This document shows positions 9,933-61,168 of a stretch of 64,000 nt of DNA, piece after piece (the stretch's first letter is position 1; the number at the start of each line of letters is the position of its first letter). Under the pieces are notes generated by a model. The model saw only the letters and a list, made by a program, of their open reading frames with translations, was not told the origin of the DNA and did not search any database. The DNA is from Symbiodinium natans (lineage: Eukaryota; Sar; Dinophyceae; Suessiales; Symbiodiniaceae): NCBI GenBank assembly GCA_905221605.1, contig CAJNDS010002203.1:465246-529245 (forward strand), in the 5' to 3' direction. The position numbers and the translations under genes were made by a program.

Positions 9933-9972
9933 ATAGACCTGATCAGACTCCCCCAAGTTCACGGGGCCACAG
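9933..9972 (+). CDS. eEF1-gamma-like exon (GST N-lobe, tentative)
   Basis: Reads IDLIRLPQVHGAT after GCAAGCAG, with a GC donor (GCCCCA). Its end phase fits the next exon. The peptide position fits the loop before the G-x-V-P-x-L-E strand, but conservation is weak. Confidence 0.4.
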
Positions 9973-60100: not shown

Positions 60101-61168
60101 TCCGCCTGAACTACCCGAATAACCTTGGCTGCTCAGTGAGCATCGTTTGGCGGCGCCAAGATGTAATATGAAATGCTCGACCTTGAAGTCTGCATGGAAA
60201 GGTCTCGTATCTTTGCGCGTCTCTCCCGGCATCCTTGCTGAAGAAGTGCCCCTTACAGCAGCAAGGACTAGGGCTGTCTGTGCCACTTCGACCATGCAGG
60301 TAGGAAGAACCTTGGAAGATGCTTTAACTATGCGTTGCTGGGCTTCTGAGGGTCTGATGTAGGAATACGCCATGGTGTATAGGAACCCCCTGAGGCTGCC
60401 AAGAAGTACAATAAAGGCCATATGCCTTGAACCCTAAACCCTAAACCCTGACATTCAGATATGGCATGTGACAGCTGTAGTACGAAGTGGAGTTTCTTCA
60501 CCAGCGCGGACTCAAGGCATGGAAAGCGCTAGAAACGTGAAGCTTCAAGCCCACACTGTCACACAGTAGAGTGTCATTGAGACCCTAAACCCTAAACCCT
60601 CAACCCTAAACCCTAAACCCTGATCCCTGGACCCGTTGGCATGCCAACAGCGGAGGGCAGGGAGTTGAAGGTTTAGGGCTCAGAGTCATGCTGGCTTCAG
60701 GCGCGTGCCCCGGAACTTAGCTTCTGTGAACACCCTGCTGGCCATTCCACTTCAAAGCAAACGATTTTCGGCTCTTGGCTCTTTGTCATCAAAGGCCTGA
60801 GCCCTGAAACCAGCTTTGATGGTTCTCCCTGGCCTTAGGGTTTCGGGATTGCATCGGAATCCCGCGCAGATGTTCAGTCTACGGTCGTCATTGGTCCATG
60901 GTTCTGGGGTTGGGGACCTCGTGCTTGAGCGTGCAGGTACCCATCGGCAGAGCTTGTCGGGTGCTTGCAGATCTTGCTCCAGGATTCTGACCAGCGGCAG
61001 CCCTAAACCCTAAACCCTAAACCCTAGATCTTCGACTTTTGGGACACGGCGGTCCTTATAAAGGCCTCAGCCGGAAGTGGCGAAGCAGAGGAGCTCCGGG
61101 CCATCCTGACCGAGCAGGGGCTCGAAGATCTCCTCGAGGAGGAGCCCACCAGCATCGCCGAGGAGAAG
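48095..61168 (+). CDS. Unidentified charged, coiled-coil-like protein(s), many exons
   Basis: A run of + strand exons that I do not recognise. It may start at ATG 48095 (MDSEGSESES) right after an AG acceptor, or continue the preceding gene. Peptides in order include LPPPPPGQ, DDDQARRRCL, STAMLFNAKERVHKASAQAA, VNEELTRAQDLLASIACRL, EDALDQKDAEIQQWKGLEAC, TNDEMQKLWPPKPRPRQES, ARAEEAEAEQRHA, RLEKIARK, AKRKAAKQAEQDRIQP, ERLAQAAEQAAQAEPPPA, QQPTVAERYEWDGEE, QDPFAGAATGTAPALDQ and IFDFWDTAVLIKASAGSGEA. Phase is continuous from 50803 to 53424 apart from one GG-type site. The composition (acidic and basic helices, Pro-rich joints) suggests an elongated structural protein. The grouping into one gene is inference. 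Confidence 0.4.
48241..48271. repeat. Poly-G run
   Basis: 31 consecutive G's. It lies about 210 bp after the poly-C run at 47999, so transcripts could pair the two and enclose the short exon at 48095-48125. Confidence 0.95.
48695..48720 (+). CDS. Exon: LPPPPPGQ
   Basis: Acceptor TCCGGCAG, GC donor (GCACCA). Correct phase from the previous exon. Confidence 0.45.
49246..49275 (+). CDS. Exon: DDDQARRRCL
   Basis: Acceptor TCGGCGCAG, strong donor GTGAGT, phase 0 both sides. Confidence 0.5.
49407..49484 (+). CDS. Exon: EHRFASTAMLFNAKERVHKA
   Basis: Twenty-six codons ending KASAQAAS. Acceptor GAACTAG, just after a CCCTAAA array. The phase to the next exon needs a GG-type site (GGGTGA). Confidence 0.55.
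49672..49729 (+). CDS. Exon: VNEELTRAQDLLASIACRL
   Basis: Acceptor CCACGCAG, donor GTTTAA. Amphipathic helix. Confidence 0.5.
49806..49919. mobile_element. MITE-like element, family A (copy 5)
   Basis: ATATGGGGGGGGTTTCCTAT at the left, ATTTTCGTAAACCCCCCCAT at the right, with internal CTTGAGGTCC and GGAATCCTTATATGTGGGG. A CT microsatellite adjoins its left end. Confidence 0.7.
50803..50864 (+). CDS. Exon: EDALDQKDAEIQQWKGLEAC
   Basis: Twenty codons plus two bases, acceptor GATGCCAG, donor GTGAGG. Coiled-coil-like. Confidence 0.6.
51223..51280 (+). CDS. Exon: TNDEMQKLWPPKPRPRQES
   Basis: Acceptor AGCTGCCAG, donor GTAGGG. Its phase (one base, then 19 codons) joins the exon at 50803-50864. Confidence 0.55.
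51297..51410. repeat. TTTAGGG array with GGGTTCA core
   Basis: TTTAGGG ends flank about nine copies of the GGGTTCA variant. Confidence 0.95.
52071..52110 (+). CDS. Exon: ARAEEAEAEQRHA
   Basis: Acceptor AAGACGCAG, GC donor (GCGTAC). Phase 0 to 1. Confidence 0.5.
52595..52620 (+). CDS. Micro-exon: RLEKIARK
   Basis: Acceptor TGAGCCAG, donor GTGCCG. Phase fits both neighbours. Confidence 0.5.
53012..53074 (+). CDS. Exon: AKRKAAKQAEQDRIQPTVPP
   Basis: Ends in D before GGGTTGG (GG-type site). Basic helix then Pro-rich. Confidence 0.55.
53204..53363. repeat. CAACCCT array joined to CCCTAAA array
   Basis: About 11 CAACCCT units (to about 53280) then about 12 CCCTAAA units: two homogenised blocks side by side, ending just before the exon at 53371. 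Confidence 0.95.
53371..53424 (+). CDS. Exon: ERLAQAAEQAAQAEPPPA
   Basis: Acceptor CCGGATCAG, GC donor (GCACTG). Ala/Gln-rich helix ending in Pro. Confidence 0.55.
54005..54118. repeat. CCCTAAA array
   Basis: About 16 units with three CCCCAAA variants in the middle. Confidence 0.95.
55326..55420. repeat. AT microsatellite
   Basis: TATATA-rich stretch immediately upstream of the exon at 55434. Confidence 0.9.
55434..55518 (+). CDS. Exon: QQPTVAERYEWDGEEVAAKV
   Basis: Continues ATDDLGC. Acceptor TGATTCCAG. A TTTAGGG array starts at the donor end (GGGTTTAGG), so the repeat itself supplies the 5' splice region. Confidence 0.55.
57138..57245. mobile_element. MITE-like element, family B (copy 3)
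   Basis: GGGGATGTTCCCCCTTATAC at the left, AAGGACTGTTAGAATAAGGG at the right. A lone right arm (CTGTTAGCATGAAGGGGGAA) lies at about 57331-57359. Confidence 0.7.
58046..58105. repeat. TTTAGGG array
   Basis: About eight units. Confidence 0.9.
58727..58782. repeat. GGGTCTA variant array
   Basis: Seven to eight copies of GGGTCTA. Confidence 0.9.
58834..58884 (+). CDS. Exon: QDPFAGAATGTAPALDQ
   Basis: Seventeen codons, acceptor GCTGCTCAG, donor GTGAGG. The DPF tripeptide resembles adaptor-binding motifs of endocytic proteins, but a single short match proves nothing. Confidence 0.55.
59006..59204. repeat. CAA/CGA trinucleotide-type microsatellite
   Basis: ACAACAACC grades into CGACGACGACG. The poly-Thr or poly-Arg frames are compositional. 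Confidence 0.9.
61028..61168 (+). CDS. Long exon, unidentified: IFDFWDTAVLIKASAGSGEA
   Basis: Continues EELRAILTEQGLEDLLEEEP then TSIAEEK: 47 codons, the longest exon seen in the window. It follows CCCTAAACCCTAG directly and is followed by a G-rich tract. Helical and acidic; no family recognised. Confidence 0.65.

Follow-up and report, generated by a model that had tools for sequence, protein, structure and literature searches.

Why should the exons of a dinoflagellate gene be bracketed by telomere repeats, and why in a preferred orientation? The question is raised by a 64,000-nucleotide stretch of Symbiodinium natans (assembly GCA_905221605.1, contig CAJNDS010002203.1, positions 465,246 to 529,245, forward strand), hereafter the window, which is eukaryotic nuclear DNA of a dinoflagellate and contains 473 copies of the heptad CCCTAAA and 415 of its complement TTTAGGG, many of them in tandem. 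Dinoflagellate telomeres are built of this heptad, according to the available text of two papers (PMC11453091; PMC7023079). The original prediction, made from the letters alone, held that exons are preceded by CCCTAAA and followed by TTTAGGG repeats (C and G arrays, or arms where they flank an exon). This rule was confirmed and proved sharper than stated. As its cause we tentatively favour, with a probability of roughly 0.45, selection for splicing acting on arrays that would have spread independently of one another. All results come from this one 64-kb window, three genes, and a single gene strand (+), no gene having been confirmed on the minus strand.

C arrays tend to precede and G arrays to follow exons

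We placed 34 exons in three plus-strand genes: an EF1-gamma-like GST protein at 6-18 kb (exons E), a conserved dinoflagellate protein of unknown function at 22-32 kb (exons F), and Traf3ip1/IFT54 at 33.7-40.8 kb (exons T). Protein relatives together with reading phase placed 33 of these; most were positioned by tblastn of dinoflagellate protein relatives, and four (T4, T7, T7b, F8b) by inspection of relatives and phase. Exon borders were drawn at AG acceptors and GT, GC or GA donors with an open reading phase across the joins, and repeat orientation was not used. A first gene model was dropped in favour of homology, many of its exons falling within introns that were later confirmed, and Pfam gave little at that stage. 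Two exons are less sure, namely F0, which comes from the gene model alone, and E11, which is of low complexity. The 34-exon list underlies the statistics by default; an earlier list of 32, lacking F8b and T7b, is indicated where it was used.

Between 25 and 150 bp upstream of acceptors, C arrays cover 0.267 of the sequence (bootstrap 0.180-0.363) and G arrays 0.064 (0.022-0.111); in the same interval downstream of donors, G coverage is 0.321 (0.215-0.446) and C coverage 0.105 (0.052-0.162). Deep introns, meaning intron sequence at a distance of over 250 bp from any exon (introns longer than 700 bp, E1-E2 left out; 8,908 bp), are unbiased (G 0.111, C 0.096). Near splice sites, the favoured orientation reaches about three times the deep-intron level, and the opposite one stays near or below it. 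Within 10-150 bp, the excess amounts to 946 bases on the acceptor side and 951 on the donor side (z 5.8). Shifting the exon set circularly never reached these values in 9,086 trials (largest, 651 and 726); for the 32-exon list, the excess is also greater than in any of 5,000 random sets placed in array-free DNA, and the density of arrays, whatever their strand, is higher near exons (0.367 vs 0.222).

The same tendency appears when splice sites are counted singly. Counting only acceptors that have 15 or more array bases within 150 bp (29; the other 5 have fewer), C is in the majority upstream of 24 (p 0.0005). For the 32-exon list, the nearest block within 100 bp is C at 20/25 acceptors (p 0.004) and G at 16/20 donors (p 0.012), figures that change to 22/28 and 17/26 (donors, p 0.17) within 200 bp and to 24/30 and 17/29 (donors, p 0.46) within 400 bp. 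When 33 exons are classed by their flanks, 13 show the arrangement C-exon-G and two the reverse. The bias is stronger at acceptors, is confined to some 150-200 bp around exons and fades by 200 bp.

Outside the three genes, exons were predicted with a gene model that combines a strand-symmetric background with the codon use of the confirmed exons; it finds 17 of the 34 known acceptors and is therefore a rough guide only. The 26 unfiltered predictions at 0-5.8 and 41-61.2 kb carry an excess of 24.2 and 28.8 bases per exon, compared with -3.3 and -6.4 for 2,000 random placements (P 0.0005, 0/2,000), and 34 predicted reverse-strand exons show no bias (-1.4 and -2.4).

Twelve of the 17 coordinates named in the original prediction could be judged, and eight are exact acceptors (22038, 24217, 25484, 26057, 27420, 30220, 34608, 40706), seven of them independently, as 22038 is the start of F0 and rests on the gene model rather than on a homologue. 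Two others, 36556 and 37856, each lie 21 bp off the true exon start, 22619 lies 6 bp beyond an exon end, and 9933 does not mark an exon. Of the exceptions noted, those before 26057 and after 22619 are real. In eight of the nine positive examples that could be judged, the nearest block is C before and G after; the ninth, 37856, has a C block before, but another C block follows 210 bp after.

Arrays alternate, with C-to-G gaps mostly of 50-150 bp

G and C arrays cover 11.5% and 11.4% of the window, respectively, compared with 0.15% and 0.13% in one mononucleotide shuffle. These tandem copies of a telomere unit known from other dinoflagellates would count as interstitial telomeric sequences, provided that the window lies away from the ends of its chromosome. 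The 276 blocks (131 G, 145 C) alternate in orientation more often than expected by chance (169 runs vs 138.6, z 3.7). Without any use of exon calls, 48/67 C-to-G gaps measure 50-150 bp, compared with 16/67 G-to-C gaps (blocks of at least 21 bp, region 5800-9300 excluded), and none of 20,000 orientation shuffles reaches 48. All 12 C-to-G gaps that hold a known exon fall into this size range, as against 12 of the 27 without one (9.3-41 kb; blocks of at least 15 bp, 32-exon list). Not a single one of the 1,748 bases in the 34 exons belongs to an array.

We also considered head-to-head telomere fusion within introns. This idea was rejected: G-to-C gaps are longer, not shorter, than C-to-G gaps (medians 175 and 109 bp; blocks of at least 21 bp, whole window), and simple fusion junctions are thus not the general case. 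Canonical heptads make up similar shares of the arrays close to exons (0.51, n=38) and of those deep in introns (0.47, n=44; blocks of at least 35 bp, 9.3-41 kb), so the former do not look younger. A 2-kb stretch between E11 and F0 (18717-20803) is free of telomere-type blocks of at least 15 bp.

Introners, fold-backs, exon-linked mutation and chance

The original prediction offered telomere-derived introners as one possibility, under which there would be a mobile element whose terminal inverted repeats are telomeric, each intron being one copy; in the available text of the respective papers, introners with terminal inverted repeats are reported in Symbiodinium microadriaticum (PMC9860276), and S. 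natans itself figures in a count of 'introner elements' (PMC10522408). Here, however, the donor G arm and the acceptor C arm of the same intron are unassociated (Fisher p 0.69, 0.69 and 1.0 at 100, 120 and 150 bp; at 100 bp, both arms in 6 introns, donor only in 5, acceptor only in 11, neither in 5, among 27 introns of the 32-exon list), and the association across exons is positive without being significant (12, 8, 3 and 8 at 100 bp, p 0.14; p 0.70 at 150 bp). Inverted repeats within 60 bp of the ends occur in 10/31 introns and within 100 bp in 16/31, numbers nearly equalled by random re-pairing of donors and acceptors (7.6, P 0.15, and 14.8). Matched terminal inverted repeats within the same intron are not the pattern: taking the inverted-repeat half of the introner definition only, repeats of at least 8 nt within 30 bp of both ends are present in 2/31 introns, with 1.1 expected on re-pairing. 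As to target-site duplications, 31 of the 34 acceptors read AG|G, and short repeats at intron borders would therefore occur in any case. The variant spectra of neighbouring arms are unrelated, the distance from arm to splice site varies, and a masked self-BLAST of the window (E up to 1e-4) found no common intron body, only short scattered elements (23 pairs: 6 in an AT-rich insert, 8 and 6 in a five-copy and a three-copy family, 3 others). Nothing indicates that the two ends of an intron were gained jointly; with arms unassociated, variants unrelated and no intron family, the arms were presumably gained one by one, and telomeric introners are disfavoured as a very improbable origin. In fold-back splicing, the arms at the intron ends would pair and draw the splice sites together, or those on either side of an exon would pair and loop it out, with exon definition or circular RNA as the outcome. 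Ten of the 30 introns scored have G first and C last, and none the opposite arrangement; in a thermodynamic prediction for 11 introns, which takes no account of proteins or of the order of transcription, pairing joins both intron ends in four (E3-E4, E4-E5, F0-F1, T7b-T8; ~6 to 41 expected pairs). In four others, however, the donor G arm is predicted to pair with the C arm upstream of its own exon (F9, F10, T2, T4; ~7 to 87 pairs) and in three with neither (E5-E6, F6-F7, F7-F8), and in E3-E4, E5-E6 and T7b-T8 the acceptor C arm pairs also with the G arm on the far side of the following exon. With intron ends preferring each other in 4/11 only, the end-to-end pairing of the original prediction is not borne out, and pairing within the intron has further points against it, as exon-spanning arms are closer (median C-to-G gap, ~110 bp), the C arm is transcribed ahead of the exon, and the arms of one intron are unmatched; in either form, fold-back splicing seems unlikely. 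The idea that structure compensates for weak splice signals is contradicted, because the downstream array is larger after GT donors (mean 60.0 bases, n=14) than after GC (31.9, n=15) or GA donors (26.0, n=4; GT vs rest, p 0.039).

The orientation rule could also arise from a mutational process, if telomerase or array expansion acted on exposed 3' ends of exon-bearing stretches without any selection on splicing. An island flanked by C and G arrays would be the expected product of telomerase acting on both 3' ends, a telomerase origin has been proposed for plant telo boxes (PMC3022908, available text), and among intron gaps without known exons, those of 50-150 bp make up 8/14 of the C-to-G and 5/25 of the G-to-C gaps for blocks of at least 21 bp (p 0.033) and 7/12 vs 5/21 for blocks of at least 28 bp (p 0.067). 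This excess in intron interiors is gone with blocks of at least 15 bp (7/19 vs 11/29, p 1.0), there is no known reason for breaks at exon edges, and near arms start anywhere from ~3 to 75 bp from the splice sites, one of them running 4 bp into the end of an exon as first drawn; we consider such a process about as improbable as fold-back splicing. Chance, or an artefact of exon calling, might be invoked given the single window and the modest donor-side site counts. The gap test, which involves no exons, the placement of exons from protein relatives, and the bias at exons predicted elsewhere, which is absent from reverse-strand predictions, leave hardly any room for it.

Splicing-selected arrays as the favoured explanation

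If splicing acted on independently spread arrays, telomere heptads would have spread singly through non-coding DNA in either orientation, and up to ~150 bp from exons, one orientation would have been kept or favoured for its effect on the pre-mRNA. A CCCTAAA array before an exon would supply a C-rich run without AG or GT, together with CTAA motifs by the acceptor, and a TTTAGGG array after it a row of GGG runs by the donor; the arrays would thus serve as ready-made splicing signals at exon edges. In this scheme, splicing would be the selecting step, and telomerase or telomere DNA the probable source.

Several properties of the splice-site regions are compatible with such a role. With arrays masked, the sequence 3-30 bp upstream of acceptors still has 92 CCC vs 5 GGG per kb, and that 60-150 bp downstream of donors has 69-92 GGG vs 9-19 CCC, counts that may in both cases include degenerate heptads. 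The median AG-free stretch is 20 nt at acceptors and 8 nt at AGs across 6-41 kb (p 5.5e-5); CTAA occurs at -70 to -10 in 22/34 acceptors, compared with 29% of random positions. Within TTTAGGG lies TAG|GG, a sequence fairly close to the AG|G acceptor, and CCCTAAA lacks both AG and GT; hence, the acceptor-side orientation fits. G arrays hold GT, yet follow donors, and a positive role for G-runs would therefore be needed there. G-run intronic splicing enhancers (hnRNP H/F) are known from animals, and the donor side fits them: as in those enhancers, the G-runs here directly follow donors. Unlike them, they are embedded in telomere heptads and mirrored by a C-rich array before the exon. Because the favoured orientation is enriched and the opposite one lies at about the deep-intron level or lower, removal of harmful arrays is not enough to explain the pattern, so that either a benefit or an exon-tied mutational bias is needed.

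A number of observations weigh against selection on splicing. Position and strand of the arrays are tied to splice sites, as expected of splicing enhancers, with the donor side falling short of significance by site count: a G majority downstream is seen at 18/27 donors (p 0.12; 6 donors have less than the array minimum). The check on intron thirds that the original prediction suggested (30 of 31 introns, E1-E2 left out) gave a C bias in the last third (20/25 non-zero introns, p 0.004) and no significant G bias in the first (16/25, p 0.23). Arrays of the same orientation lie on both sides of nine of the 33 classed exons (C in six, G in three), and E2, F7 and F9 have a G array 10-23 bp ahead of the acceptor. 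Masked triplets are symmetric at 30-60 bp, both upstream (CCC 45, GGG 41 per kb) and downstream (GGG 33, CCC 31), and with arrays masked, the G skew downstream of donors is only slightly higher (0.145) than in deep introns (0.101) and exons (0.091). Eukaryotic acceptors are commonly preceded by AG-poor sequence, and the excess of CTAA may simply stem from the arrays and is no proof of branch-point use. Avoidance of decoy acceptors would explain the acceptor side and not the GT-holding G arrays after donors, and exon-linked mutation could produce the same pattern. Extended to the entire genome, the favoured explanation would make the telomere repeat an exon punctuation, C strand before and G strand after, acquired site by site as part of a splicing code with degenerate donors; this broader claim, which goes beyond the sequence at hand, is possible, though we doubt it more than selection as such.

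Genes and other elements of the window

The exons and arms are listed in the table below. The spliced exons form single open frames in E2-E10, F1-F12 (to the stop) and T1-T8. Donors are GC (15), GT (14) and GA (4); GT/GC/GA donors and AG|G acceptors have been reported in dinoflagellates (PMC10666404, available text). Spliced E2-E10 matches GST_C (1.1e-10) and GST_N (3.4e-5) in Pfam, and the exon peptides as first joined match elongation factor 1-gamma in PDB (3.8e-10); the gene has 15 matches, with named relatives from Symbiodinium and Prorocentrum. The F protein is 78% identical to P0079 over 185 residues and has no Pfam match at E 0.1; the best 120 of its 206 matches are mostly marine transcripts, the one named organism being Alexandrium andersonii. 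Traf3ip1 contains the MIP-T3 domain (Pfam, 2.9e-15), and all 145 of its spliced residues form an exact substring of S. natans protein P0136, a match obtained for this gene only and requiring the 16-nt coding exon T4; the DNA is accordingly taken to come from S. natans or a very near relative. The PDB search with F and T peptides gave best E values of only 0.69 and 0.38. An Rfam scan of the window found nothing at gathering scores, and no spliced-leader relic with up to two mismatches was found.

Intron E1-E2 contains an AT-rich stretch (6200-8800, ~41% GC) with internal tandem repeats and, at its ends, inverted AT-repeat stretches of ~120 bp (6252-6371 and 8639-8753, 84% alike); it looks like an inserted foreign element. 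A dispersed sequence of ~100 bp is present in five copies that are 70-83% alike. The copies of a three-copy element match on both strands, so that the element is palindromic and possibly a small fold-back transposon. At 732-1136, the gene model predicts two exons, each in a gap with a C array before and a G array after, which may represent the end of an ABC transporter, to judge by a motif.

Table. Exons, array arms and dispersed elements of the window (window coordinates; dispersed copies given individually).
Feature	Position	Strand	Basis
Exon E1, EF1-gamma-like GST gene	6078..6144	+	tblastn of dinoflagellate proteins, borders refined
Exon E2; TTTAGGG array before (exception) and after	10087..10164	+	tblastn, borders
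Exon E3	11053..11081	+	tblastn, borders
CCCTAAA arm before E4	11476..11549	-	array scan
Exon E4 (C-exon-G)	11605..11673	+	tblastn, borders
TTTAGGG arm after E4	11675..11736	+	array scan
CCCTAAA arm before E5	12105..12148	-	array scan
Exon E5 (C-exon-G)	12170..12234	+	tblastn, borders
TTTAGGG arm after E5	12286..12330	+	array scan
CCCTAAA arm before E6	13579..13662	-	array scan
Exon E6 (C-exon-G)	13720..13766	+	tblastn, borders
TTTAGGG arm after E6	13790..13891	+	array scan
Exon E7	14814..14857	+	tblastn, borders
Exon E8	15013..15097	+	tblastn, borders
Exon E9	15252..15294	+	tblastn, borders
Exon E10	15656..15703	+	tblastn, borders
Exon E11, Lys/Ala/Pro-rich linker	17525..17614	+	weaker: low complexity
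CCCTAAA arm before F0	21955..21992	-	array scan
Exon F0 (C-exon-G), low-complexity	22038..22077	+	gene model only, no homologue match
TTTAGGG arm after F0	22100..22225	+	array scan
Exon F1; CCCTAAA array after (exception)	22519..22613	+	tblastn, borders
Exon F2	22994..23018	+	tblastn
Exon F3	23304..23333	+	tblastn
CCCTAAA arm before F4	24155..24202	-	array scan
Exon F4 (C-exon-G)	24217..24266	+	tblastn
TTTAGGG arm after F4	24291..24350	+	array scan
Exon F5	25150..25206	+	tblastn
CCCTAAA arm before F6	25377..25412	-	array scan
Exon F6 (C-exon-G)	25484..25511	+	tblastn
TTTAGGG arm after F6	25546..25614	+	array scan
Exon F7; TTTAGGG array 10 bp upstream of acceptor (exception)	26057..26124	+	tblastn, borders
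CCCTAAA arm before F8	27344..27374	-	array scan
Exon F8 (C-exon-G)	27420..27479	+	tblastn
TTTAGGG arm after F8	27484..27669	+	array scan
Exon F8b	28689..28723	+	reading phase and relatives
Exon F9; short TTTAGGG block 23 bp upstream of acceptor (exception)	29648..29687	+	tblastn, borders
CCCTAAA arm before F10	30142..30187	-	array scan
Exon F10 (C-exon-G)	30220..30267	+	tblastn
TTTAGGG arm after F10	30329..30366	+	array scan
Exon F11	31412..31453	+	tblastn
Exon F12 with stop codon	32098..32127	+	tblastn
Exon T1 of Traf3ip1 (IFT54)	33708..33760	+	tblastn, S. natans protein match
CCCTAAA arm before T2	34506..34596	-	array scan
Exon T2 (C-exon-G)	34608..34647	+	tblastn, S. natans protein match
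Short TTTAGGG arm after T2, then CCCTAAA block 34728-34781	34710..34724	+	array scan
Exon T3	35191..35280	+	tblastn, S. natans protein match
CCCTAAA arm before T4	36392..36552	-	array scan
Exon T4, 16 nt (C-exon-G)	36577..36592	+	inspection against P0136
TTTAGGG arm after T4	36629..36743	+	array scan
Exon T5	37835..37890	+	tblastn, S. natans protein match
Exon T6	38835..38890	+	tblastn, S. natans protein match
CCCTAAA arm before T7	39490..39540	-	array scan
Exon T7 (C-exon-G)	39552..39585	+	inspection against P0136
TTTAGGG arm after T7	39656..39705	+	array scan
Exon T7b	39987..40016	+	phase and S. natans protein
CCCTAAA arm before T8	40584..40646	-	array scan
Exon T8 (C-exon-G)	40706..40765	+	tblastn, S. 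natans protein match
TTTAGGG arm after T8	40774..40805	+	array scan
Predicted exons without homology confirmation, same tendency (e.g. 41628, 43219, 46893, 51223, 53371)	41000..61200	+	gene model
Five-copy ~100-bp sequence	3623-3726, 13347-13447, 22827-22921, 43674-43767, 49803-49912	both orientations	masked self-BLAST
Three-copy ~100-bp element	35722-35832, 36823-36926, 57133-57240		masked self-BLAST

Relation to known systems and implications

The introns described here resemble the introners of dinoflagellates (Amoebophrya, Symbiodinium, Polarella, Prorocentrum) in that some of them have inverted repeats near both ends, and they share with introner-bearing dinoflagellates the GT/GC/GA donors and AG|G acceptors. 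Here, unlike in introners, the repeats are arrays of telomere type; they mostly span tens of bp, are unmatched between the two intron ends and come without common intron bodies. In the available text, introners of Prorocentrum are defined by two kinds of repeat within 30 bases of the intron ends, inverted (8-20 nt) and direct (PMC10666404), following the work on Amoebophrya (PMC7789003), and in S. microadriaticum the target duplication supplies the 5' splice site of the introner (PMC9860276). With inverted repeats within 30 bp of both ends in 2/31 introns, most introns of the window would not be called as introners within those 30 bases. Interstitial telomeric sequences and plant telo boxes are, as here, telomere-type motifs inside chromosomes; unlike here, telo boxes are short and concentrated in 5' UTRs, and the words orientation, strand and splic are absent from the available text of that paper (PMC3022908). 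In the available open-licence literature on telomere-type repeats in introns and on introners, we found no report of the present arrangement, and a search of that literature aimed at G-run and C-rich enhancers found no papers.

Dinoflagellates splice very short exons with GT, GC or GA donors, and a strand-specific repeat at the exon edges makes the recognition of these exons testable. Searches for introners that look for inverted repeats near intron ends may catch unrelated arrays of this kind. If the favoured explanation is true, telomere sequence would have been reused as an RNA signal.

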